Shown in pieces: positions 14,115 through 27,460 of a DNA stretch of 64,000 bases. Origin of the DNA: Oceanimonas aquatica (GTDB taxonomy: Bacteria; Pseudomonadota; Gammaproteobacteria; Enterobacterales; Aeromonadaceae); assembly GCF_030732065.1 (NCBI RefSeq), contig NZ_JAVBHX010000001.1, positions 1 to 64,000 of the forward strand, written 5' to 3'. Both the position numbers and the translations under genes were made by a program. The notes below the pieces were generated by a model. The model had not been told where the DNA came from. It searched no databases and saw only the letters and a program-made list of their open reading frames with translations. The stretch's first letter is position 1. Every line of letters starts with the position of its first letter.

Positions 14115-14933
14115 ATGGCGATTACAGTTAATACCAACGTTACTGCAATGGGTGCCCAGCGCAACCTGAACAAGTCTTCCAACGCCCTGGCCACCTCCAT
14201 GGAGCGTCTGTCCACCGGCAGCCGCATTAACTCCGCCAAGGACGACGCCGCCGGCCTGCAAATCTCCAACCGTCTGAACTCTCAGGTGCGTGGTATGGGG
14301 GTTGCGATGAAAAACGCTCAGGATGGTATTTCTCTGGCACAAACCGCTGAAGGTGCGTTGGATGAATCCACTAATATTCTGCAGCGTATGCGTGATCTGT
14401 CGGTTCAGGCCGGTAACGACACTAACAGCACTGCAGACCGCACCGCGATTAAGGCCGAGATTGACGAGTTGTCTGATGAGCTGACCAAGATTACCGAGAG
14501 AACCAAGTTTGGTGGTGGCGCGCTGCTGGATGGTCAATTCACCAGTAAAGTATTTCAGATTGGCGCCAATTCTGGTGAGACCATCACCATAAGCATTGCA
14601 ACCCTGAATGCTGCTGCTTTGAGCGTAAATGCCATTACTGTAGAAAGTAACGGAGCGGTATCAGTCGGGCTGGCAAAAATTGATGCAGCCATTGCATCAG
14701 TTGACACCGAGCGCTCGAAACTGGGTTCCTTCCAGAACCGGATGGACAGTACCATCAATAACCTAGCCAACATTCGTGAAAACACTGCAGCAGGTATGAG
14801 CCGTATCAAGGATGTGGACTTTGCCCAGGAAACCGTTAACCTGACCAAGCAGCAGATTCTGCAGCAGGCCGGTACTTCCATCCTGGCTCAGGCCAAGCAG
14901 ATTCCGCAGGCTGCCCTGTCCCTGCTGGGCTAA
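14115..14933 (+). CDS. Flagellin
   Basis: Filament subunit exported by the flagellar type III system. The 272-residue protein has the conserved N-terminal D0/D1 helices ([36 protein letters not shown]) and C-terminal [14 protein letters not shown]...QAALSLLG. Only about 60 residues separate the D1 halves, so the outer D2/D3 domains are missing and the filament surface is compact. That central stretch (about 140-200) is rich in Ser and Thr, plausible O-glycosylation sites for pseudaminic acid. Ribosome site CACGGAGAG. It is monocistronic, with a strong sigma-28 promoter and a terminator. It is the only flagellin in the window; it could be named flaA or fliC. Confidence 0.97.
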
Positions 14934-15047: not shown

Positions 15048-15425
15048 ATGAATACGCTTATCCCTTCTCAACGCATGCCTGCCTCAGTAACAGATGCTGT
15101 ACAGAAACAGCCTCTCGTATCCACTCAGCCTGCCGGCAACGAGGCCACTCAAACTAACCAAGCCGTGCAAGCCGTGGATAAAACACAAAAAAGTGAGCTG
15201 AGCGGCAAGCAACTGGAAGAGATGGCAGAGCAGGTGGAGTCTTTTGTCAGTACTTTTAATCGCGGGCTCCAGTTCAGGGTGGATGAAGACTCGGGCCGGC
15301 ATGTGGTCACAGTGCTCGATAGCGACACTGGCGATGTGGTACGCCAGATACCATCAGAAGAGTTGCTGGATGTGATTACTCGCCTAAATGAAGCCAGTAG
15401 AGGCTTGATTGATACCAAAGCATAG
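15048..15425 (+). CDS. flaG: Flagellar protein FlaG
   Basis: Small cytoplasmic protein of the FlaG family (125 residues), which in Vibrio, Aeromonas and Pseudomonas affects filament length. The family core is LQFRVDEDSGRHVVTVLDSDTGDVVRQIPSEELL at about 74-108, preceded by a polar, low-complexity N-terminus. GAGGA lies ahead of the start. It sits between flagellin and fliD, the usual location. I could not see a clear sigma-54 or sigma-28 promoter in the 114 bases upstream. Confidence 0.94.
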   Translation: MNTLIPSQRMPASVTDAVQKQPLVSTQPAGNEATQTNQAVQAVDKTQKSELSGKQLEEMAEQVESFVSTFNRGLQFRVDEDSGRHVVTVLDSDTGDVVRQIPSEELLDVITRLNEASRGLIDTKA

Positions 15426-15436
15426 GAGATAGCACT

Positions 15437-16822
15437 GTGGCAGATTTGAAGTTACCCGGCGTAGGCTCCGGCTTTCCTATACAGGCTTTTGTTGATGCAA
15501 CCGTAGCTGGCGAACGTGCAGCCAAGGATCAACAGTTGTCGCGCCGTGCCGATTCCATAGATGTGCAACTGTCAGCTTATGGCACCATTAAAAGTGCGAT
15601 GGACGAGTTTAACACCGCACTTAAAAAGCTCACTGAGGATGAAGCCTTTCAGAAGCGTTCGGCGACACTGAATCATGAAGACTTTATTGCCGCCAAGGCA
15701 GATAGCACTGCCGTGGCGGGTAGCTACAGTATACAGGTGATACAGCTTGCTCAGGCACATAAGCTGGGGTCGGCTGCCGTAGAGCCAGATAAATCTCTTG
15801 GCTCTGGTAGTATGACGCTGGGAGTTGGCGGTGAGTCTTTTACCGTTAACATCGATATTAACAAGAGCTCTCTGGCCGATGTGGCTGCTGCCATCAATAA
15901 CGCGGAAGACAACACGGGTGTCAGAGCAACAGTCATTACCGATGATGGTGGCTCGCGACTGGTTTATTTTGCCGATAAAACCGGCGAAGATCATCAGATC
16001 ACCGTTGCAGCCAGCAGTAACGGGGATGGAGAGGCCGGGAACAGCCTGACTGCACTGGGGCAGACCACAGAAATAAATGCAGCTCAGAACGCTAAGGTAA
16101 GCATTGATGGTGCCACTGTTACCAGCCAGTCTAATCAGGTAAAAGATGCCATCGCCGGTGTTACCCTGGATTTGAAAGCCGTGAACAATGCCGCAGGTGA
16201 AAAACCTAATACGACTCTTACTATTGGTTATGACAAGGAAGCCGTAGAGACCAATATTAAAGATTTTGTTGCATCTTATAATAAGGTGATGAGCACGCTA
16301 AATAAATTGACCAGCTATGATGTGGTGAATGAAAAGGCCGGCGCTTTGAACGGAGACAGTACCGCTCGTAGCCTGCAGTCAAACATGAGAGCATTGTTGG
16401 GTGAATCGGTAGCAGGGGCAATTGGTGATCTGAACAGCTTGAATGACCTGGGTGTAAAAACTAAAAGAGATGGTTCAATAGAGCTTGATGATAGTGTGCT
16501 GAATAAACAGCTTACTGATAACTTTGATCAGTTGGGTGCCTTGTTTTCGTCTGATGATGGTGTTGGTAGTAAGCTCAGTAACTTAATAGATGGATATATT
16601 GGGAATGAGGGTGTTATTACTCAAAAAAATGATGCTCTTAATAAACAGATGACCCGAGTAGAGCAAGATGCCGATAAGTTTGAGTTGTACATGAGTGGTT
16701 TTGAGACTCGGGTTTACAAGCAATTTTCTGCGATGGATATGGCTGTAGCCCAAATGAACCAGCAACTTAACTCCGTAATGGCTGCATTTTCCAATATGCC
16801 GACCATGGGAATGAATCAGTGA
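15437..16822 (+). CDS. fliD: Flagellar filament cap protein FliD
   Basis: Capping protein (HAP2) that folds flagellin at the filament tip. The 461-residue product has the N-terminal LPGVGSGFPIQAFVDATV and the C-terminal coiled region (LYMSGFETRVYKQFSAMDMAVAQMNQQL) typical of FliD. It begins at GTG (15437) with TAGGAG seven bases before. Its stop overlaps the start of the next gene by four bases, suggesting coupled translation. Confidence 0.97.
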   Translation: MADLKLPGVGSGFPIQAFVDATVAGERAAKDQQLSRRADSIDVQLSAYGTIKSAMDEFNTALKKLTEDEAFQKRSATLNHEDFIAAKADSTAVAGSYSIQVIQLAQAHKLGSAAVEPDKSLGSGSMTLGVGGESFTVNIDINKSSLADVAAAINNAEDNTGVRATVITDDGGSRLVYFADKTGEDHQITVAASSNGDGEAGNSLTALGQTTEINAAQNAKVSIDGATVTSQSNQVKDAIAGVTLDLKAVNNAAGEKPNTTLTIGYDKEAVETNIKDFVASYNKVMSTLNKLTSYDVVNEKAGALNGDSTARSLQSNMRALLGESVAGAIGDLNSLNDLGVKTKRDGSIELDDSVLNKQLTDNFDQLGALFSSDDGVGSKLSNLIDGYIGNEGVITQKNDALNKQMTRVEQDADKFELYMSGFETRVYKQFSAMDMAVAQMNQQLNSVMAAFSNMPTMGMNQ

Positions 16823-17124
16823 GTGTATTAAAGGCGCTCACTGAACTGGATATTCATCTTTTGCAAAATTTGAAAGATGTGGACTCTATTGATGAAGTGG
16901 ATCTCGAAAAGCAGATTGCTTTAAGAGGGGAGTTGTTGAAAAAAGTCATCAAAGAAGAACCTAGTATTGATCACGTCGAAGCTGAGCAGCTCATAGCGCG
17001 CTCTCGACAACTTAAGACGAATGTTGAGAATTTAAGGCAACAATTGGCTGATAAACTTAAAACGATTAATAAAGGCCGCCGTCTTATCCAAGAGTACCAA
17101 TCTGTAAAAAATAATCAGGAGTAA
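16819..17124 (+). CDS. FliT/FlaI-like flagellar chaperone
   Basis: A 101-residue, highly charged, helical protein between fliD and fliS, where Vibrio has flaI and enterics have fliT. FliT-type proteins bind FliD and prevent early export. Similarity is weak by eye, and the assignment rests mainly on position, length and helical heptad-like content (RSRQLKTNVENLRQQLADKL). It starts at GTG inside the fliD stop. AT content rises clearly from here on. Confidence 0.7.
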   Translation: MSVLKALTELDIHLLQNLKDVDSIDEVDLEKQIALRGELLKKVIKEEPSIDHVEAEQLIARSRQLKTNVENLRQQLADKLKTINKGRRLIQEYQSVKNNQE

Positions 17125-17127
17125 ACC

Positions 17128-17514
17128 ATGCGCGGTTCTATGAAAGCGTATAAATCCGTAGCGATCGATAGCCAAAAATCGGTGGCAAGCCCCTATCAGA
17201 TAGTCAAGTTGCTGCTAGCCGGTTCACTGGAACGTCTTGCCAAATCGCGTGTTGCCATTGAACAAAAAAACTATGAGCAACGTGGTGAGCTGATAAGTTC
17301 AACATTGCTCATATTGGCAGAGCTTCGCATGTCTCTGGATCATGAAGCAGGGGGTGAAATAGCCACTAACTTGGATAAACTATATGAGTTTATAATGGGT
17401 GAGTTGGTTGAGGCTAATAGTGAAAATAATATTGAACAGGTAGAGAATGCAAGCCGTCTTTTACGAGAAATAAAGGTTGCTTGGGATAATATTCCAACAG
17501 AGTTTCAGAGTTAA
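17128..17514 (+). CDS. fliS: Flagellin export chaperone FliS
   Basis: Binds the C-terminus of flagellin and keeps it unfolded for export. The 128 residues show the family pattern: Y/S-rich start, SPYQIVKLLLAGSLERLAKSRVAIE, and LSRLLREIKVAWD-like C-terminal helix (here ASRLLREIKVAWDNI). AGGAG precedes the ATG. The following gene is a glycosyltransferase; in Caulobacter FlmG, flagellin recognition is by a TPR domain, so chaperone and transferase may see the same flagellin pool. Confidence 0.96.
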   Translation: MRGSMKAYKSVAIDSQKSVASPYQIVKLLLAGSLERLAKSRVAIEQKNYEQRGELISSTLLILAELRMSLDHEAGGEIATNLDKLYEFIMGELVEANSENNIEQVENASRLLREIKVAWDNIPTEFQS

Positions 17515-17535
17515 TTAGTTTAAGGAATGGTAGCA

Positions 17536-19614
17536 ATGCAAGCTTTTAAAAATAAAAAAAACATGACAGTTCAACGTCTATTAGATGAAGGGCTGCATTG
17601 TTACCATGAAAGGCGTCTCGAAGAGGCCCTTTTTTATTTTGAGAAACTACTGGATGTTGCTGATAACAATGTTGATCTTTTACATACTATTGTAAAGCTA
17701 CTGCAGGAAATGCAAGATTTCAGTAAAGCAGCTATGTATGGTGAAAAACTTCTTGTTTTATCTCCGGAAAATGAAGACTTTTTGTTGTCCCAGGCTGAAA
17801 ATCACTTTTTTTTGAAAGATTATCAAAGTGCATTACAACTTTATCTAAAGTTGCATCAGCAGTTTCCTTCTAGCCTACATCTGTTGAATCGATTTATTTT
17901 GATTTGTAATGAAGATGTCAAATGTTTGAGTTCGTTACAACTACAGTTGCTTGCTGATAATGACTTGGAGCATGAAACCCTTGTTGATTCAGCACTTTCT
18001 TTATCTGAAGCACTGCTGAATAAAGATGAACTTGACAAAGGTAAAATAATTCTGGAAAGTCTGCTTGCTATAGAGCAGGAGAACTTAGAAGTATTTGGGC
18101 TGTATGGTATTTTTCTGGAAAAATCAAGTAATCGAGAAAAAGCAATATTTTATTTAGATAAAGCGGTTGATAATGGTCATTTTAAATACTTAAGTACATT
18201 GGCAAAATGCCTTGAAATGGTATTTAACATTCCTGCAGTAGTGTTCTACCTTGAAAAACTGGTGGAAAAATTCCCTGATCATGATGTGACTAAAAAGTTG
18301 CTTGGCTATTATTATTATAGAAATGATGATTACGGGAATGCTGATAAAATATTTTCAAATTTTTCCGTTTCTCCTGAGGATGATATTTATCTTTTTAAGT
18401 ATAAAACACTTGCTCGATTTAAAGTGGTCGATGAGCGTAGCGGTGCACAAGATATAAACGTACATATATCATTGATGAATGATCTTTTTTCACTATGGAA
18501 ACACTTACCGCAGGATGAGCAAGTTTCATCTAACTTGGTTTTATTCTACCTGAATTTAGGGGAAATTGAAAAAGCACATGATATTTGTCTTAAGTTGGAT
18601 GAAGTAATTCCAGGTAACTTGACCAATAAATGGAACAAGCATGTTTATTATCGTGCGAAAGGGTTAAAGGATGAGTACTTTGACGCTTATCTTGCCGGGC
18701 GTCATATTCGATACAGAAAATCCTGGAGTGTAATAAAAGATAAAGTATGGAACGGCGAAAGTCTAAAAGGTAAGCGAATTGTCGTATTCAGGGAGCAGGG
18801 GGTTGGTGATGAGTTACTTTTTGCTAGCAATTACGGTTGGCTCGTAGATAAGGCCGAGCACATTGATGTTTTCTGTGCTTCCAGATTAAAAGATATATTT
18901 AGCTGTGCATTTCCTACTATAAACTTCATACCCATTTCAGAAGAAAGTTTTAATTGCAATGATGAAAGTGTATTTCAGCTGATATCTGATGCTGACAAAA
19001 TAATTCTTTCAGGAGATTTACCTTCATTCATATATCGGGAAAGAAGGGAGAGCTTGTATGAACAAGTTTTTCTTGAAGTAGAGGGTTATAAAAAAACTTT
19101 TTGGAATAGTAAGCTGGCTAATTTAACAGGAAGGAATAAGCCCAAAGTAGGTTTAATCTGGCGAAGTGGCTTTGTTAGTAGTTCAAGGAGTAAGCACTTT
19201 CTAGATGTTTATGAAGTGGCTAGTATTATTTCAGGTATGCCGGATGCTGATTTTTTTAGTTGCATGTATGTAGAGTGCGATAATGAGATTAAAGAAATAG
19301 AAAAGCTTTCAGGCAGGAAGATACATGTTATACCTGAACTTGATCAAAAAAATGACTTTGGTAATACAGCTGCAATGCTGAGTAGCTTGAATGTTTTGGT
19401 TGGTGCTTATACTGCTACTCTTTCTCTTGCTGCTGCTGTGGGCACTCCAATAGTGGCTTATGCTTCAGATTACTTTAAAAATGACGGCGTGCTTAAAAAA
19501 AGAGCGCTCTACTATAAAGATGTTGTCCATATTTCTTTGCCGAATAATGATAATTTAACACGGAGAGAAGCTGTAAAAGTTATTATGAATGAGGTAAGGC
19601 TTTCTATTTCTTAA
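17536..19614 (+). CDS. TPR-glycosyltransferase, FlmG-like candidate flagellin modifier
   Basis: A 692-residue two-part protein. Residues 1-380 are tandem TPR-like helical repeats (LLDEGLHCYHERRLEEALFYF, KAAMYGEKLLVLSPENEDF, KAIFYLDKAVDNGHF). The C-terminal 300 residues look like a GT-B glycosyltransferase: GKRIVVFREQGVGDELLFAS near 410, PKVGLIWRSGF near 535, and GAYTATLSLAAAVGTPIVAY near 625. Known family: Caulobacter FlmG has the same order and transfers pseudaminic acid to flagellin. I start at 17536, which has AAGGA at nine bases; the ATG at 17527 touches that site. The gene is markedly AT-rich, suggesting acquisition. It sits beside fliS and 0.5 kb from a full Pse operon. The transferred sugar and target are inference. 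Confidence 0.78.
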   Translation: MQAFKNKKNMTVQRLLDEGLHCYHERRLEEALFYFEKLLDVADNNVDLLHTIVKLLQEMQDFSKAAMYGEKLLVLSPENEDFLLSQAENHFFLKDYQSALQLYLKLHQQFPSSLHLLNRFILICNEDVKCLSSLQLQLLADNDLEHETLVDSALSLSEALLNKDELDKGKIILESLLAIEQENLEVFGLYGIFLEKSSNREKAIFYLDKAVDNGHFKYLSTLAKCLEMVFNIPAVVFYLEKLVEKFPDHDVTKKLLGYYYYRNDDYGNADKIFSNFSVSPEDDIYLFKYKTLARFKVVDERSGAQDINVHISLMNDLFSLWKHLPQDEQVSSNLVLFYLNLGEIEKAHDICLKLDEVIPGNLTNKWNKHVYYRAKGLKDEYFDAYLAGRHIRYRKSWSVIKDKVWNGESLKGKRIVVFREQGVGDELLFASNYGWLVDKAEHIDVFCASRLKDIFSCAFPTINFIPISEESFNCNDESVFQLISDADKIILSGDLPSFIYRERRESLYEQVFLEVEGYKKTFWNSKLANLTGRNKPKVGLIWRSGFVSSSRSKHFLDVYEVASIISGMPDADFFSCMYVECDNEIKEIEKLSGRKIHVIPELDQKNDFGNTAAMLSSLNVLVGAYTATLSLAAAVGTPIVAYASDYFKNDGVLKKRALYYKDVVHISLPNNDNLTRREAVKVIMNEVRLSIS

Positions 19615-19689
19615 AATGAAGTGATTCAGACACGATCTGACAGTTTCCGGCTACCGACTTTTCAACTCGTGACTGTCAGATTTTAATCA

Positions 19690-19875
19690 TCCTGGACACT
19701 TCTCTTGCTAAGCTGATTTTTCATCAATCATTGCTTACATGGGGACAAGACTACAGCACATTTTTTCTTGATGGATTCGTTCATTGTTGTAGTACTCCAA
19801 CTAGATACCCAGACCATCTTGCAGCTAATCAAGTGTGCTGTAAACCTTCTTCCTGAAAGTCACTTGTAGAATTCC
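19690..19875 (-). pseudogene. Decayed IS481/IS3-type transposase, C-terminal remnant
   Basis: Read on the minus strand, one frame gives VTFRKKVYSTLD*LQDG, then LEYYNNERIHQEKMCC, then M*AMIDEKSA*QEK. This follows the C-terminal pattern of IS481-like DDE transposases (TFRKK.Y..L.ELQ..LD..L.YYNNERTHQGKMCCGRTPM), with several in-frame stops. Only the last roughly 60 codons remain. It marks past insertion between the flagellin block and the Pse operon. Confidence 0.75.
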
Positions 19876-19920
19876 TACAATATCGTCTTAAGGAAGTATG
19901 AAGGAGAGTAACATGAAAAA

Positions 19921-19950
19921 AGATAGTTCCTTGATTTAGGATAAACGGCC
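19921..19950 (-). repeat. Solo terminal repeat of the IS5-type element
   Basis: Positions 19921-19941 match 93-113 of the window at 20 of 21 bases, and the outer part still resembles the GGCGTTG end. No transposase start follows, so it is a fragment or a non-autonomous remnant. Confidence 0.65.
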
Positions 19951-20131
19951 CAGTTTTCATTTAAGAGGAATAAGCAAAGTCAGTAGCACTTTTTTATCAG
20001 CAATGCTTTCAGAACTTTTATCAAGTTTGGTAAACCTCAATTATTCAAGGTTAGTGTTAGATTAAGTCAGGAATAATAAACCGCACCTTTGTATAACACA
20101 TCAGTTGCAATTAATTTTCATGTAAAACGTT

Positions 20132-21190
20132 TTATTCATAAAACAAATTCCAATTCGTTGGTTGACCGTAACTAACACTTTCTTTTAATAACTTACCAAT
20201 TAATGAATCAAAATATTTAGGAGCTAAACCATAACCTGGTCTTACACTGCGTATCGCATCTTCAGTTACAATGCTGTCGGCCTTTAGATCTTTAACGAAA
20301 TAAAGCGAGCGGCGGAACTTAATATTACCCTGTTCACTGGACTTACGTCCGTAATCAATCTTTCCAAGCGCTTGCCAAGCTGTTTTGGTATCGTTGCACA
20401 GGGTTGTGAGTTCAGCAGGTTCAAGTGAGAAACTGTCGTCCGGGCTACCACCATTACGATCGAGAGTAAAGTGCTTTTCAATAATGGACGCACCCATAAC
20501 AACGCTGGCGATGGCTGTGGTGTTATCCAAGGTGTGATCTGACAGACCAGTTACCAAACCAAAGCGCTCAATCATGTCCGGGATTGTACGCAGGTTGTAA
20601 TCTTCTGCTGGTGCCGGATAGCCACTAACACAGTGAAGAATAGCCAGCTCCTTGCAACCACCTTCCCGCGCGGCCTCTATGGCTTCCTGAATTTCTTCTG
20701 CATCAGCCATGCCGGTTGAAATGATCATCGGCTTGCCGGTGCTGGCTACATATTTGATAAGAGGCAGATCAACGGCTTCAAAAGAAGCAATTTTGTAGGC
20801 GGGTGCATTCAGCTCTTCCAACAGATCGACTGCGGTGTTATCGAATGGTGAGCTGAAGATGGTAATGCCAAGTTTACGAGCGTGTTCAAAAAGTGGCTTG
20901 TGCCACTCCCAGGGCATATGAGCTTCTTCATATAGATCGTAAAGTGTGCGGCCGTCCCACAAGCCACCTTTGATCTGAAATTCTTCTCTGTTTCTGTTAA
21001 GTGTAATGGTGTCGGCAGTATAGGTTTGTAATTTAACAGCATCTGCACCTGCTTTTTTTGCTTCTTCAATAATACGAAGAGCAGTTTCTAGCTTCCCGTT
21101 ATGGTTGGCAGACAGTTCAGCAATAATATAAGGACTAGTATCAGCAGCAATTTGGCGCCCAGCAATATTAATACTCGGAAGGTTAGCCAT
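20132..21190 (-). CDS. pseI: Pseudaminic acid synthase
   Basis: Condenses 2,4-diacetamido-2,4,6-trideoxy-L-altrose with phosphoenolpyruvate to give pseudaminic acid. NeuB-family TIM barrel (YIIAELSANHNGKLETAL, KLQTYTADT, IISTGMA, LHCVSGYPAP, GLSDHT, IEKHFTLDR) followed by a C-terminal SAF/antifreeze-like domain (RRSLYFVKDLKADSIVTEDA). The 352-residue form starting MANLPSIN is preferred because GAGAGA lies ten bases upstream and pseH ends just before it; the ATG at 21205 would overlap pseH. It is the last gene of pseBCFGHI. Confidence 0.93.
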   Translation of the reverse strand: MANLPSINIAGRQIAADTSPYIIAELSANHNGKLETALRIIEEAKKAGADAVKLQTYTADTITLNRNREEFQIKGGLWDGRTLYDLYEEAHMPWEWHKPLFEHARKLGITIFSSPFDNTAVDLLEELNAPAYKIASFEAVDLPLIKYVASTGKPMIISTGMADAEEIQEAIEAAREGGCKELAILHCVSGYPAPAEDYNLRTIPDMIERFGLVTGLSDHTLDNTTAIASVVMGASIIEKHFTLDRNGGSPDDSFSLEPAELTTLCNDTKTAWQALGKIDYGRKSSEQGNIKFRRSLYFVKDLKADSIVTEDAIRSVRPGYGLAPKYFDSLIGKLLKESVSYGQPTNWNLFYE

Positions 21191-21194
21191 ATGT

Positions 21195-21716
21195 TTATCT
21201 CTCATTATTTGTGTTCCATTCGCTTGAAATCAAACCAAAGCAAATAACATCATGGTACTGTTGCCCATCAAAGTATTGATCACGCAGCCTGCCTTCTTCT
21301 TCAAAGCCTAAGCGCAAATGAAAGCATATGGAGGGTTCGTTATAGCTCAACGCTTGGCCACATACTTTATGTAAGCCAGCAGTAGTAAATGCATAATGTA
21401 ATGATGCTTGCCCGAGCAATTTTCCAGTTCCTTTGGGTGCCCCTGGTGCAGCATAAAAACCCCAGTCTGCCACCCCACCATCAGTAATTTGGTGAATATT
21501 AATAAATCCGAGGGGCTTGGCATCAATTTCAAAAATCAATAGGTGATAAGTGCTATCTTGAGATACTCGCTCAAACCAATGGGAGTGTTCAGCCAACGTA
21601 ATTTCATGCTGTCTGTACATATATCGTCGCACATCTGAATGGTTGCGCCACCCTAATACAAATTCGAGATCACTCTCGAGCATAGGGCGTACTTTTATAT
21701 GTGAATTTTTATTCAT
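21195..21716 (-). CDS. pseH: Pse-pathway GNAT N-acetyltransferase
   Basis: Acetylates the 4-amino group of UDP-4-amino-4,6-dideoxy-N-acetyl-beta-L-altrosamine. It is a 173-residue GNAT protein with RPMLESDLEFVLGWRN at the start, the acetyl-CoA loop GAPKGTGKLLGQ near 90-101, and YNEPSICFHLRLGFEEEG near 125-142. The order within the operon (after pseG, before pseI) agrees. Its start is one base after the pseG stop. Confidence 0.9.
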   Translation of the reverse strand: MNKNSHIKVRPMLESDLEFVLGWRNHSDVRRYMYRQHEITLAEHSHWFERVSQDSTYHLLIFEIDAKPLGFINIHQITDGGVADWGFYAAPGAPKGTGKLLGQASLHYAFTTAGLHKVCGQALSYNEPSICFHLRLGFEEEGRLRDQYFDGQQYHDVICFGLISSEWNTNNER

Positions 21717-21717
21717 A

Positions 21718-22812
21718 TCATGATTCCAGACGCTTTATTACTGTGTCAGCACCATAGCCATCGAGTATATCTGCAGCAGCTTGACTCATTTTTTTAAGCT
21801 GGAGTGGTTGTGCTACTAACGCTGCTAACATATTTGATATACATGAGCTAAGATGATCATTATTAGATAGAACTCGGGCAGCGTTTGCTTTTTCAAGGTT
21901 ATTAGCAATTGTCTGCTGATTATCAGCCAAGACCACCATTACAGTAGGCAAGCCCAAACAACACCGCTCCCAGGATGTGGCTCCAGCAGCGCCTATGGCC
22001 AGATCACTATCGGCCATCAATTGGGCCATGTTACTAACCCCCACCTTGACTTCTGTTGACCATGGCAGTGTTTCGGCTTGTTGGATTACTCTTTCTAACC
22101 AGGGAGCTGTTGCTCCCATCACCACCATAATTCTGCAATCGGCCGGAAGTTCGCTGTCACGCAGTGCTTCAAGCACTTGTCCGGTTACATTGTCTTTATC
22201 CACTCCGCCCATGGTGATCAGCAATTGGCGTAGTGCCGGTTGGCGACGGCGCTGCTGGCTGTAAGGCCGTAGTTCGGCAAACTCCGGGCGCAGCAATGCG
22301 TATTGGGAGCCACATAGCAGCTCGCAATTATCAGGCACCAAGGGGCGATAGTCTGCTGCGCTGCGGCCAAAGGTCTGATCCAGCAATAGGTTGCACTGGT
22401 GTTCACGGTCGGCCAGATCATCAATCACCATAATACGGGCGGCAACCTCGGCTGCCTGCTGCTCCCAACCAATGTCCAGTGCATAGTGATCCGCTACCAG
22501 CCAGTCTACGGGCTGATTGCTGAGAACAGCGCGGGTCTGTTCGGCGTCCTGCTGCCAGGTGACACCCAGCCAAGGGGCGTGATCATTCCAGTTCAGCTCT
22601 GCTGATGCATGCTCTGCTTTATCACCAGCCGGCAGTAAATGCAATGAAAAGCCTTTCGCGGCAATCAGGTCACCTAGGTGCCCTTTGTGTTCACGGCAGA
22701 TAAACAGGCATTCATGGCCTTGACGTTTCAGCTCTTCGGCCAGCGTAAAGCAGCGCATAACATGACCGGTGCCAATTTGAATGGAGGCATCGGCGCGAAA
22801 GGCGATGTTCAT
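21718..22812 (-). CDS. pseG: UDP-2,4-diacetamido-trideoxy-altropyranose hydrolase
   Basis: Removes UDP from the fourth pathway intermediate to free 2,4-diacetamido-2,4,6-trideoxy-L-altrose. The 364-residue GT-B-like protein opens with IAFRADASIQIGTGHVMRC, the family signature with the catalytic histidine in GTGHVMR, and has ITMGGVDKDNVTGQVL near 205 and GAAGATSWERCCLGLP near 280. Its start overlaps the pseF stop by four bases. Confidence 0.93.
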   Translation of the reverse strand: MNIAFRADASIQIGTGHVMRCFTLAEELKRQGHECLFICREHKGHLGDLIAAKGFSLHLLPAGDKAEHASAELNWNDHAPWLGVTWQQDAEQTRAVLSNQPVDWLVADHYALDIGWEQQAAEVAARIMVIDDLADREHQCNLLLDQTFGRSAADYRPLVPDNCELLCGSQYALLRPEFAELRPYSQQRRRQPALRQLLITMGGVDKDNVTGQVLEALRDSELPADCRIMVVMGATAPWLERVIQQAETLPWSTEVKVGVSNMAQLMADSDLAIGAAGATSWERCCLGLPTVMVVLADNQQTIANNLEKANAARVLSNNDHLSSCISNMLAALVAQPLQLKKMSQAAADILDGYGADTVIKRLES

Positions 22813-23513
22813 TCAGCCACCACATTGGCCTGCATGGCTTTGAACAGCCACTCGGCACGGGTCCAGTCTTCCGGGGTATCGATATCCTGCACCCGGTGCC
22901 GGGGCAGCTTTACCGGTACCGAGCCGCCGGCAAAGAGTGGTTTTTCGGCCAGCCAGGCTGCTGCTGTGCCCCAGTAGAACTGGCCCGCATCGTGCCAGGC
23001 TTCTTCCAGATCCTGAGAGCGGGTCATGAAATGTTCGGGGTTAAACATGGCCACACTCCCTTGCCCGGTAATGCGAATGGCCCGCTGAATGGGGAAGGCA
23101 TAGCTGGTAACCGAAAAGGCGTAATCATGCGCTGTGCCATTGAGCAGTTGCCAGCCTTGCTGAAGATCTTCGGCTGACACAAAGGGCGCCGTGGCATAAA
23201 TGCAGCAGGCATAATCAACAGAACCTTCATGTTCTTGAAGCCACTGCACCGCATGGCGTATCACCGGAATGGTGCCAGCGTAGTCGTCGGACAATTCTGT
23301 CGGCCGCATAAAAGGAACTTGTGCTCCCCATTGCCTGGCCGTTTCCGCAATCTCGATATCATCCGTGGAAACGATAATTTTATCGAAACAGCCGCTGGCC
23401 TTTGCCGCCTCAATAGACCAGGCAATCATGGGCTTGCCACAAAACGCTTTGATGTTTTTGCGCGGAATACGCTTGCTGCCGCCCCGGGCAGGGATAATGG
23501 CAACTCGGATCAT
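22809..23513 (-). CDS. pseF: Pseudaminic acid cytidylyltransferase
   Basis: Activates pseudaminic acid to CMP-Pse, the donor for glycosyltransfer. The 234-residue protein has the nucleotidyltransferase opening IPARGGSKRIPRKNIK, then IVSTDDIEIAETA and CCIYATAPFVSAEDL, matching PseF. Four-base overlaps with pseC and pseG show tight coupling. Confidence 0.94.
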   Translation of the reverse strand: MIRVAIIPARGGSKRIPRKNIKAFCGKPMIAWSIEAAKASGCFDKIIVSTDDIEIAETARQWGAQVPFMRPTELSDDYAGTIPVIRHAVQWLQEHEGSVDYACCIYATAPFVSAEDLQQGWQLLNGTAHDYAFSVTSYAFPIQRAIRITGQGSVAMFNPEHFMTRSQDLEEAWHDAGQFYWGTAAAWLAEKPLFAGGSVPVKLPRHRVQDIDTPEDWTRAEWLFKAMQANVVAE

Positions 23514-24667
23514 GCTGTTGCCTTCTCCAGAACTGCGTTCAGCACCTGAATAACTTCATCCTGCTGCTCATCAGTCAGCCCCTGATACATTGGCAGGCTG
23601 ATCGCTTCGCTGTAGTACTGCTCCGCTTGCGGGTAATCGCCCTGCTTAAAGCCCATGTTCTGGTAGTAGGGTTGGGTATGCACCGGAATATAATGCAGGT
23701 TTACGCCAACACCCTGCTCTCTCAGCTGTTCAAACACCTGACGATGAGTTTTACCGTGCAGGCGAACAACATACAGGTGTAACCCGGAGTAACTGTCGGG
23801 CTGCTGCCAGGGAGTGATAACCGGCAGGTTTTGCAGCAATTCATCGTAGCGCCTGGCCAGCTGATGTCGGTGGGCTACAAAGGAATCCAGCCGTTCCATC
23901 TGACTGATGCCCAGTGCCGCCTGCAACTCGGTCATACGGTAGTTGTAACCGAGTTCTATCTGCTGGTAATACCAAGGACCATCTGGCTCATGAGTCATAA
24001 GTTGTGGCTCACGAGTCACGCCATGGTTGCGATACAGCTTCATCTTCTCGGCTAGCTGATCATCGTTAGTTAGCGCCATGCCGCCTTCGGCAGTGGTGAT
24101 GATTTTCACCGGATGGAAGCTGAACACAGTAATGTCGCTGTAGCGACCGTTTCCGATGTACTCGCCCTGATACTTGCCACCAATGGCGTGAGAAGCGTCT
24201 TCAATCACCTTGAAGCCGTATCGCTGTGCTAGTACATGTATGGCCGCCATATCGCAGGGCTGGCCACAAAGATGCACGGCTACCAGCACCTTTGGCAGGC
24301 GGCCTTCGCACTCGGCCACTTCCAGCTTGGTGGCCAATGCCTTGGGGCAAAGGTTATAAGTGCGTGGGTCTATATCGACAAAATCCACTTGGGCGCCACA
24401 ATATAAGCCGCAGTTGGCGGAGGCGACAAACGTGATGGGAGTGGTCCACAGCCAGTCTCCTTTGCCAAGACCCAATGCCAGGCAGGCGATATGCAGTGCA
24501 CTGGTTGCGCTGTTGGTAGAGAGAGCGTGTTTAGCTCCTACCTTGGTGGCAACGGTATGCTCAAACAGTGGTACTTTGGGACCCTGAGTAAGAAAGTCAG
24601 AATTGAGCACCTCAACCACCGCATCAATATCGGCCTGGGTGATTTCCTGTTTACCGTAGGGGATCAT
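23510..24667 (-). CDS. pseC: UDP-4-amino-4,6-dideoxy-N-acetyl-altrosamine transaminase
   Basis: PLP-dependent DegT/DnrJ/EryC1/StrS aminotransferase that aminates the C4 keto sugar made by PseB, with glutamate as donor. The 385-residue protein shows MIPYGKQEITQADIDAV, the PLP region VIEDASHAIGG near 157-167, and the catalytic lysine in FSFHPVKIITTAEGG near 187. Its ATG overlaps the pseB stop codon by one base. Confidence 0.95.
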   Translation of the reverse strand: MIPYGKQEITQADIDAVVEVLNSDFLTQGPKVPLFEHTVATKVGAKHALSTNSATSALHIACLALGLGKGDWLWTTPITFVASANCGLYCGAQVDFVDIDPRTYNLCPKALATKLEVAECEGRLPKVLVAVHLCGQPCDMAAIHVLAQRYGFKVIEDASHAIGGKYQGEYIGNGRYSDITVFSFHPVKIITTAEGGMALTNDDQLAEKMKLYRNHGVTREPQLMTHEPDGPWYYQQIELGYNYRMTELQAALGISQMERLDSFVAHRHQLARRYDELLQNLPVITPWQQPDSYSGLHLYVVRLHGKTHRQVFEQLREQGVGVNLHYIPVHTQPYYQNMGFKQGDYPQAEQYYSEAISLPMYQGLTDEQQDEVIQVLNAVLEKATA

Positions 24668-25665
24668 CAGATGCTGCCTATTTTTCCACGATTTACTTTA
24701 ATCCAGCTTTGCAATTCAGCATCTGTCATCCAGTCGGCATTATTATCGCTGGCGTAAACGAAGCCTTCTGGTACTTTTTTGCCGTTCTTGATGCGTTTTT
24801 CACAGTTGGACCAGCCATGAATGCTGGGCAAAATTTTGAAATGCTCGTCGTATTCATAGGTGTAGTGGGCATCTTCAGCGCTGATCATTTGTTCATGCAG
24901 CTTCTCGCCGGGGCGAATGCCAATCAATTCCTGCTTGGCTTCGGGGGCAACTACGCGGGCCAGATCTGTTACCTTCATGGAAGGGATTTTTTTCACATAA
25001 ATCTCGCCACCCACCATGTCTTCAAAGGCATGCCATACCAGCTCAACACCCTGTTCGAGTGAGATCATAAAGCGGGTCATCCGAGGATCTGTAATGGGCA
25101 ATACGCCCTGATCCTTAAGTGACATGAAGAAAGGAATGACCGAGCCTCGTGAGCCCATGACATTGCCATAGCGAACAACGGAAAAGCGGGTACCGTGCTC
25201 ACCGGAGTAGGAGTTACCAGCTACAAACAGCTTGTCGGATGCCAGTTTGGTGGCGCCATAAAGGTTGATGGGGCTGCTGGCCTTGTCTGTTGAGAGAGCC
25301 ACAACGCCTTTAACTCCCTTGTCGATGCAGGCATCGATCAAATTCATGGCGCCGTTGATATTGGTTTTAACGCACTCGAACGGGTTGTATTCGGCGGTGG
25401 GCACTATTTTGGTGGCGGCGGCATGCACCACATAGTCGACACCATCCAGGGCTCGATAAAGGCGATCCTTGTCGCGTACATCGCCTATAAAGAAGCGGAT
25501 TCGTTCATCGTGCTGGAACTTGGCGGCCATCTCCCACTGCTTCATCTCGTCTCGGGAGAACACGATCAGCTTTTTGGGGTTGTAACGGGCCAGTGTCATG
25601 GGGACGAAGGTGTTACCGAAGGAGCCTGTCCCTCCCGTGATGAGGATGGTTTTGTTGGAGAGCAT
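24667..25665 (-). CDS. pseB: UDP-N-acetylglucosamine 4,6-dehydratase (inverting)
   Basis: First enzyme of pseudaminic acid synthesis: 4,6-dehydration with C5 inversion of UDP-GlcNAc. It is an extended SDR protein of 332 residues with the NAD loop TGGTGSFGNTFV near 10-21 and the RYGNVMGSRGSVIPFF region. The catalytic Y-x3-K is in NLYGATKLASDK. The start at 25665 (MLSNKTILITGG) matches family length, and the longer frame adds sequence not expected in the family. It is the promoter-proximal gene of the operon. Confidence 0.95.
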   Translation of the reverse strand: MLSNKTILITGGTGSFGNTFVPMTLARYNPKKLIVFSRDEMKQWEMAAKFQHDERIRFFIGDVRDKDRLYRALDGVDYVVHAAATKIVPTAEYNPFECVKTNINGAMNLIDACIDKGVKGVVALSTDKASSPINLYGATKLASDKLFVAGNSYSGEHGTRFSVVRYGNVMGSRGSVIPFFMSLKDQGVLPITDPRMTRFMISLEQGVELVWHAFEDMVGGEIYVKKIPSMKVTDLARVVAPEAKQELIGIRPGEKLHEQMISAEDAHYTYEYDEHFKILPSIHGWSNCEKRIKNGKKVPEGFVYASDNNADWMTDAELQSWIKVNRGKIGSI

Positions 25666-26011
25666 GCCGATTCTCTGGTGCAATAGAATGAACCTGATTC
25701 TAAGCAAAATGTATGCCTGTTTACAGGGCATGATGACAAGCGCCATTTTCCCGCCACAGACTGCCTCCAAGTTTGACCTGACTGCCCTGCTCAAGATTGA
25801 AAATTAGTCACCTACTTTTCCAAGTTTGATCCTGATCAATATTGTTCGACTTTTTGCGTCTATCTTTGTCGAGTTGTTTTGACGCTTGTGTCAGAATTAC
25901 GACTCATATGGTTTCATGTGTGTACCGCTTCAATGTTATGCTGGTGTCGAGCTAGGGATAAGCTCTGAAATTAAATTTAATAACCAACTGAATTTAAAGG
26001 ATATTTACCCT
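25666..26011. other. Divergent control region pseB / flrA (346 bp)
   Basis: AT-richer than the genes around it. It must carry the pseB promoter (minus) and the flrA promoter (plus). A perfect FNR-type palindrome lies at 25826-25839. A possible sigma-70 -35 (TTGACG at about 25879) lacks a clear -10 at proper spacing. Confidence 0.55.
25826..25839. promoter_or_regulatory. FNR-type box TTGAT-N4-ATCAA
   Basis: TTGATCCTGATCAA is a perfect match to the FNR/EtrA half-site arrangement. It lies 173 bases upstream of flrA and 161 upstream of pseB, so it could control either gene by oxygen. CRP-like proteins bind related palindromes, so CRP is an alternative. Confidence 0.5.
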
Positions 26012-27460
26012 ATGGGCTTTAATGGCTGTGTCTTGATCATGGATCATAACCAGGAACGGCGGTCAAGACTGGAAGCTATCCTTTCCTTTATGCAGGTGCA
26101 GTGGCGCAGCGGCAGCCGCGCCAATGATCTGGCGTGGTTGCGGGAGCAACCCCATACCATGACGGTACTGTTGGGGGAAACGGACTTTCCGCCCGCCGAG
26201 TTGCTGAAAGAGCATCCCCATCATGTGTTTATTACGCTCAACCCTTGCCGCACCAGGGCGACTAATCTGCTGGGCGCCATTAATGAACTGACCTACGACG
26301 AGCTCACCCGGCTGCTGGGGCAGGCCGAGCAATGGCGGCCAGTGGCGCAAGGACATCAGCATGAGCAGTGCCTGAAGGAATTACTGGTGGGAGAGAGCCC
26401 CGCCATGCAGTCGGTAAAAGGGCTTATTCGTCAGGTGGCCGACAAGCAGGCCAATGTGCTGTTGCTGGGGGAGTCGGGTACCGGCAAGGAAGTGATCGCC
26501 CGGGCCATTCATTCATTGTCGCAACAGGCGAAGGGACCCTTTGTGCCCATTAACTGTGGAGCCATTCCGGCGGAGCTGCTGGAAAGCGAGCTGTTTGGTC
26601 ATGAAAAGGGCGCCTTTACCGGCGCGGTATCGGCCCGTAAGGGGCGCTTCGAGCTGGCCGATGGCGGCACCCTGTTCCTGGATGAAATTGGCGACATGCC
26701 CCTGCCCATGCAGGTAAAGCTGCTGCGGGTGTTGCAGGAACGCAGTTTTGAGCGGGTAGGGGGCACGCGGCCCATCAAGGCCAATGTGCGGGTCATTGCC
26801 GCCACCCACCGGGATCTGGAAGAAATGATCCAGGAGCAGCGCTTTCGGGAAGATCTCTACTACCGGCTCAACGTGTTTCCGATCACGGCGCCGCCCCTGC
26901 GTGAACGAAAAGACGATATTGCCCTGCTGCTGAAAGAGCTGGTGGCGCGCCACCGCAGCGAGCACCGCGTGGATCTGGGCTTTTCGCCGGCGGCCATTCA
27001 GACCCTGCAGGGGTATCGCTGGCCCGGCAATGTACGCGAGTTGTCGAACCTGGTGGAGCGCATGATGATCCTGTGCCCCGATCAGCAAGTGGAGCCGGGC
27101 GATCTGCCGGAAAAATACCGGGGCGATTATGTACCTGCGTCGTTCGATGACATGGACGAGCAGGCAGCTCTGGCGTCCATTTTTTCCGATGAACCCGTCG
27201 AGTTCGATGAAGAAGGGGCTACCTTTTTTGATTTTGAACCGGAAGACGACACCCCGGTCATGAACGGTGAGCTGCACATTCCCGATCTCGCCACCGAGTG
27301 CTTCAACCTCAAGGAAATGCTGGCCAATATCGAGGTCGACATGATCGGCAAGGCGCTGGACGCCCACGACGGCGTGGTGGCCCGGGCCGCCGAGCACCTG
27401 GGCATGCGCCGCACCACCCTGGTGGAGAAGATGAAGAAGTACGGGATTGGGCGGGATTGA
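26012..27460 (+). CDS. flrA: Flagellar master regulator FlrA (FleQ type)
   Basis: Sigma-54 enhancer-binding activator at the top of the polar flagellar cascade. The 482-residue protein has a degenerate receiver (no phospho-acceptor Asp in the usual place), an AAA+ core with Walker [16 protein letters not shown], the sigma-54 contact loop EKGAFTGAV and Walker [12 protein letters not shown], and a C-terminal Fis-type helix-turn-helix ([25 protein letters not shown]). The start at 26012 has AAAGGAT nine bases before; the upstream in-frame TTG region is not family-like. It probably activates flrBC and basal-body operons. FlrA/FleQ often responds to c-di-GMP. Confidence 0.96.

Follow-up and report, generated by a model that had tools for sequence, protein, structure and literature searches.

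The window, meaning the whole stretch of 64,000 nucleotides of Oceanimonas aquatica DNA that was analysed, contains a polar flagellar locus with the gene order ligA, flagellin, flaG, fliD, FliT-like ORF, fliS, a gene for a protein with tetratricopeptide repeats and a glycosyltransferase domain (TPR-GT), a 517-bp spacer, pseI-H-G-F-C-B on the opposite strand, and fleQ (Table 1). The TPR-GT gene starts 21 bp past the end of fliS (17514) and is convergent with pseI (minus strand, ending at 20132), with 517 bp between them. The fliS-fleQ interval holds the TPR-GT gene, a spacer with no ORF of at least 80 aa, the six Pse genes, and nothing else. PseB, C, F, G, H and I all scored above the NCBIfam equivalog cut-offs. 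The first-pass annotation was right to place the TPR-GT gene after fliS and 0.5 kb from a full Pse operon. The true start of PseB is probably near 25665; the TIGR03589 match begins at residue 44. On the minus strand of the spacer (19615-20131), a remnant resembling the final part of an IS3-type transposase (YYNNERIHQ) was recognised by eye. Promoter and terminator scans gave no more than shuffled sequence.

Table 1. Features of the flagellin to fleQ region of the window (residues of the TPR-GT are numbered from 17527)
Feature	Position	Strand	Basis
Polar flagellin, 272 aa, core-only, proposed acceptor	14115..14933	+	Pfam Flagellin_N, Flagellin_C
FlaG	15048..15425	+	Pfam
FliD	15437..16822	+	Named from order and conservation (ORF, tblastn pattern across relatives)
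Small FliT-like ORF	16819..17124	+	Named by position; no Pfam match
FliS, flagellin export chaperone	17128..17514	+	Pfam; TIGR00208 above cut-off
TPR-glycosyltransferase (TPR-GT), proposed flagellin Pse transferase	17536..19614	+	ORF opens at 17527; Pfam TPRs, AlphaFold2 model, fold comparison
TPR superhelix, ~22 helices, residues about 15-395	17569..18711	+	Pfam TPR matches, AlphaFold2 model
GT-B domain with GT9 (heptosyltransferase) fold, residues 410-695	18754..19611	+	Predicted fold
EQGVGD motif, residues 423-428	18793..18810	+	Alignment
AT-rich spacer between convergent genes, with stop-riddled transposase-like remnant on minus strand	19615..20131	.	Remnant recognised by eye
PseI, pseudaminic acid synthase	20132..21205	-	TIGR03586, 509 bits (cut-off 340)
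PseH, N-acetyltransferase	21195..21716	-	TIGR03585, 116 bits (cut-off 93)
PseG, UDP-sugar hydrolase	21718..22812	-	TIGR03590, 334 bits (cut-off 154)
PseF, CMP-Pse synthetase	22809..23513	-	TIGR03584, 355 bits (cut-off 206)
PseC, aminotransferase	23510..24667	-	TIGR03588, 570 bits (cut-off 424)
PseB, dehydratase	24667..25794	-	TIGR03589, 550 bits (cut-off 408)
FleQ, first backbone gene past the cassette	25886..27460	+	Pfam FleQ, Sigma54_activat

The TPR-GT ORF spans 17527-19614 on the plus strand (695 aa). The start at 17536, also chosen in the first-pass annotation, is preferred over 17527 because AAGGA lies 9 nt before the ATG at 17536 but abuts that at 17527, and because 17536 is the start in all three other rows of the TPR-GT alignment. 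Pfam found TPRs in the protein and nothing else, with no match to the MptE-like domain (PF01973), and no Pfam or NCBIfam model above its cut-off names the whole protein. The GT domain was recognised by its fold in an AlphaFold2 model with a mean pLDDT of 92.9. The GT half alone matched GT9 chains in the VIA-align structural rows, from which a missing family is not taken as excluded; a PDB sequence search returned TPR matches, and no match to the GT half among the 60 of 149 matches listed. These data confirm the proposed joining of a TPR array to a GT-B domain with an EQGxGD loop. The invariance of EQGxGD among relatives is partly by construction, since one seed peptide was EQG[VI]GDE[LI] and rows without EQG.GD (L006) were left out of the alignment. 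Residue 580, beside an almost invariant Tyr, is Met in the three copies of the genus and Gln in more than 90% of relatives.

Relation to FlmG and other transferases

Like FlmG of Caulobacter crescentus (CCNA_01524; PMC7591256), the TPR-GT combines N-terminal TPRs and a C-terminal GT-B domain with a Pse pathway and no Maf. The FlmG sequence compared in this study comes from the FlmG locus of a MAG of uncultured Caulobacter (L092, 610 aa, versus 596 aa in the strain of that paper). With this protein as query, the TPR-GT was the only match in the source genome (E 8.8e-27). The two GT halves are homologous (27% identity over 245 aa, pairwise E 7e-30) and share the GT9 fold in their models; Pfam finds a GT domain in neither protein. 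The comparison with FlmG that the first-pass annotation had proposed thus revealed the same two-part architecture and fold, and the compared Caulobacter locus also encodes a short flagellin (278 aa). The two systems differ in that the TPR arm of the window protein is longer, and its gene follows fliS, whereas the FlmG-locus gene lies beside flbT/flaF. They also fall on separate branches in careful trees. The first of these trees held 45 hand-picked rows, and the second added the remaining 7 genomes of the order, so that all 21 were placed by best match; a well-supported branch separates TPR-GT and FlmG in the best trees (supports 99/95 and 99/94), and a joint clade was not rejected by the AU test (p 0.192 and 0.215). 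An initial FastTree, which left out the duplicate L035, had joined them at 0.90, and the FlmG orthology that it indicated was not upheld by the careful trees. The description "FlmG-like" holds for architecture and GT homology; strict orthology is neither shown nor rejected by these trees.

The catalytic half shares its GT-B fold with the GT9 heptosyltransferases WaaC, WaaF and TibC, and a GD motif near the N-terminus of the relatives' heptosyltransferases appears to correspond to that of the TPR-GT. This correspondence was drawn by inspection, because the hhalign profile match to heptosyltransferases spans just 71 C-terminal columns. The TPR-GT further differs from these enzymes in its TPR arm and in that its GT half, despite the GT9-like fold, gave no match to PF01075 (Pfam Glyco_transf_9) at E 1. 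OGT and SPINDLY, which are TPR plus GT41 proteins, likewise join a TPR superhelix to a GT-B domain and were the best Foldseek matches of the whole model; however, identity was about 9-15% and the rmsd high, and it was GT9 chains that the GT half alone matched. In A. caviae, of the same family Aeromonadaceae, Maf1 is reported to put Pse on flagellin before chaperone binding (PMC3426422, PMC4065374). The reaction proposed here, Pse transfer to flagellin Ser/Thr before export, would be the same, but the TPR-GT is not homologous to Maf and lacks its MptE-like domain. Clostridium flagellin glycosyltransferases (PMC13317340) also bear TPRs and are encoded in a flagellar island, but carry a GT2 catalytic domain instead of a GT9-like GT-B domain. 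Among the matches listed in full-text searches of open PMC papers, screened by titles and abstract starts, none described a FlmG-type enzyme from the flagellar locus of a gammaproteobacterium.

Distribution of the cassette and of Maf

An intact TPR-GT was found in 3 of 23 genus genomes: the source (G000), G020 and G002. G020 was judged from a matching protein to be Zobellella iuensis, a species in Aeromonadaceae, Gammaproteobacteria. The TPR-GT is not a chance ORF, because proteins 55% and 43% identical to it hold the same position behind fliS in the two other genomes. In all three, the TPR-GT and nonulosonic acid (NulO) genes fill one fliS-fleQ slot as an AT-rich cassette; the GC content of the TPR-GT gene is 35.2% versus 59.1% for the window, and is 34.8% in G020 and 38.9% in G002. 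The partner pathway is Pse in the source genome and in G020, where the PseF counterpart matched weakly, and is of Leg/Neu type in G002, where the LegC-family, NeuC, NeuB and NeuD models scored above cut-off and PseI did not. A polar-type fliS was found in 18 of the 23 genomes, and the 15 non-carriers among them were compared. The fleQ match lies 188-3113 bp past the fliS match in 14 of these 15 (513 bp or less in 11), versus 9388 bp in G002, 13620 bp in G020 and about 8.4 kb between the ORFs in the window. The fifteenth non-carrier, G017, has a broken N-terminal piece of the TPR-GT behind fliS (query 12-92 in two overlapping pieces; L196 5451-6947). Past this piece, a transposase-like ORF and further flagellar genes were recognised by eye, and NeuB had no match in the G017 genome.

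Across the backbone, window proteins are 71-98% (CysK to LigA) and 75-97% (FleQ to FliG) identical to those of G002, G006, G004, G013 and G008. The halves of the window flagellin are most like those of G020 (89/95%), a more distant genome whose backbone, compared on the downstream side, has a FleQ 68% and a FliF 82% identical to the window's. FliD and FliS most resemble those of the two other TPR-GT carriers. FlaG breaks this pattern, with 63% identity to G020 and 79% to G002. Such sequence relationships suggest that flagellin, FliD, FliS, TPR-GT and NulO genes may move together. In G020, a FemAB-like protein (TIGR04421, below cut-off; L002 502-1452) adjoins the TPR-GT, and might modify the sugar further.

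The three carriers have core-only flagellins of 272, 273 and 272 aa. Those of the 15 non-carriers measure 313 aa (G010), 388 aa (G014) and 488-860 aa in the rest, and a flagellin of at most 320 aa is associated with carriage (Fisher p 0.005), in genomes that are few and related, the three carriers of one genus not being independent. This link bears on why some flagellins need sugar to assemble. In G010, the non-carrier with the short flagellin, an Abi_2 family gene (L193 6416-7189) is the sole ORF of at least 100 aa in a 3.1-kb fliS-fleQ gap.

The first-pass annotation had noted no Maf protein in the window, and the genome-wide search that it proposed was also empty: neither PF01973 nor PF20157 had a match anywhere in the source genome (3.45 Mb, 24 contigs, listed as 100% complete). 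The PF01973 search works, since 10 of 41 relatives matched; PF20157 matched nowhere and had no positive control, so its absence says little. On these searches, a Maf hidden elsewhere in the source genome was rejected.

In a sample of 295 genomes of the order, 118 had Maf and 116 had PseI above cut-off. A GT-domain match was found at E 0.001 in 64, of which 21 were kept (at least 84 bits), the other 43 scoring 37.5 bits or less; among the weak matches, 8 loci were inspected and 3 scanned, two of which passed Pfam GT9 while the third fell below cut-off. Maf is present in 94 of the 116 PseI genomes, in 90 of them without a TPR-GT and in 4 alongside one; a further 8 have a TPR-GT and no Maf, and 14 have neither (odds ratio 0.078, Fisher p 1.5e-4). 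This table used 116 Maf genomes, and 8 further weak-match genomes outside the PseI set left it unchanged. Counted among the "neither" class is G303 (79% complete, PseI, no Maf match), in which adjacent split GT-domain pieces (G303:C3:1013859-1014240) look like another broken TPR-GT.

The branch of the window's TPR-GT comprises 7 of the 21 genomes (G000, G002, G034, G236, G274, G053, G027) and is present in several gammaproteobacterial genera. All seven have a NulO-synthase match (p 0.03 against 180/295, weak by itself), five with PseI above cut-off, and none of the seven has a Maf match at E 0.001. The chance that all 5 PseI genomes of the branch would have no Maf is 1.6e-4, a value uncorrected for relatedness and for a branch named after the tree was seen. 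Flagellin lies nearby in 5 of the 7; the stretches fetched for G053 and G027 contain Pse genes but none for the flagellum. Among the 20 TPR-GT stretches of the order sample, flagellin was found in 9 (G002, G034, G236, G274, G266, G293, G160, G060, G173) and FleQ-FleS-FleR in 2 more (G218, G238), with no flagellar match in the other 9, some of them short (G053, G027, G118, G097, G247, G258, G062, G145, G032).

Maf is also present in 4 of the 12 PseI genomes with any TPR-GT (G060, G118, G238, G293). The TPR-GTs of these four and of G266 are placed elsewhere in the trees than the window's branch, and those of G118 and G238 sit on long terminal branches. In one genus (G060, G266, G293), a short TPR-GT (457-467 aa; L144, L145, L147) stands near Maf in flagellar clusters, the matched GT and Maf domains being 1.2-1.3 kb apart; one protein may act after the other, or each may use a different sugar. 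Frames of 438-441 aa with a Maf-type match also occur in E. coralii, E. nigricans and Enterovibrio sp. ZSDZ35, 3 of the 20 genomes surveyed by way of named TPR-GT loci (20 of 75 loci, picked as flagellin-linked and including several MAGs). Strict mutual exclusion of TPR-GT and Maf is thus false, both in the distant branch and in these three Enterovibrio genomes.

The 75 wider loci came from the top 80 among at least 442 candidates, found with peptides of flagellum-linked proteins. Of the 80 TPR-GT rows in the initial FastTree (window included), 35 had a match to flagellin, FliD, FliS or FlaG in the fetched flanks, which differ in length, and 18 had a match to a Pse gene; the share with flagellar neighbours is partly by construction, because the search was seeded from flagellum-linked proteins. 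Flagellum-linked rows include Enterovibrio, Grimontia, Salinivibrio and Photobacterium jeanii. No Pse gene was found in the fetched flanks of the 15 Vibrionaceae loci (L036-L049, L064), where the sugar donor may therefore differ. Most Azospirillum loci have no flagellar neighbours.

Proposed role in flagellin glycosylation

From the gene itself, its architecture and predicted fold, its repeated linkage to flagellin and NulO genes and the lack of any Maf found, it is probable that the TPR-GT is a flagellin pseudaminyltransferase, a cytoplasmic O-glycosyltransferase of the FlmG kind that stands in for Maf in this organism. This agrees with the role put forward in the first-pass annotation, on evidence drawn from sequence comparison. 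We infer that the TPR superhelix would hold newly made polar flagellin, although TPRs are generic, and that the neighbouring Pse operon would make CMP-Pse. The GT9-fold domain would then transfer Pse from CMP-Pse to flagellin Ser/Thr in the cytoplasm, presumably before FliS-guided export. Maf is the transferase known from the Pse-decorated polar flagella of Aeromonas, a member of the same family; in the source organism, this task appears to fall to another enzyme.

The TPR-GT could instead add a neutral, hexose- or heptose-like sugar to flagellin as GT9 enzymes do, with Pse destined for LPS or capsule. The ADP-heptose enzyme fold of the GT half and the Vibrionaceae relatives that show no Pse genes in their fetched flanks would fit this reading. 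It is nonetheless unlikely, given the NulO-synthase match in every genome of the window's branch, the NulO genes that adjoin the TPR-GT in the same genus slot with a type differing by species, and the lack of any Maf found that could put Pse on flagellin. Rather less likely is that the TPR-GT acts as an accessory enzyme or chaperone-like factor and that Pse is added to flagellin by some other transferase, not recognised as such. The short TPR-GTs near Maf suggest a second or helper role in their own genomes, but these belong to another branch; no Maf was found in the source genome, and its fliS-fleQ interval offers only the TPR-GT, the spacer and the six Pse genes. It seems very improbable that the enzyme has a non-flagellin target such as a surface polysaccharide and that its place among flagellar genes is a coincidence: TPR-GTs lacking flagellar neighbours do exist (most Azospirillum loci, 9 of 20 in the order sample), but the repeated flagellar linkage in the window's branch, the signs that it was exchanged along with the flagellin gene and the correlation with flagellin length all argue against it.

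Beyond a flagellin pseudaminyltransferase in this organism, a broader model can be offered tentatively, and we hold it to be possible rather than probable. It envisages a modular, exchangeable flagellin-glycan cassette, in which a TPR arm matched to its own flagellin would be joined to a GT9-fold half that can use either CMP-Pse or CMP-Leg. This cassette and the flagellin gene might be swapped together by recombination between fliS and fleQ, replacing a long outer-domain flagellin with a core-only, NulO-coated one, and the cassette may take the place of Maf in some of the Gammaproteobacteria. The comparative picture is the main addition of this study: judged from the genomes compared, one cassette appears to bring together a core-only flagellin, a transferase that occurs without Maf and a NulO pathway that can be exchanged. 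Because species of one genus pair the TPR-GT with different NulO pathways, donor choice is testable by swapping halves. Another contig of the source genome (G000:C20; L162, L187) encodes a further flagellin and a further FliS, which suggests a second flagellar system.
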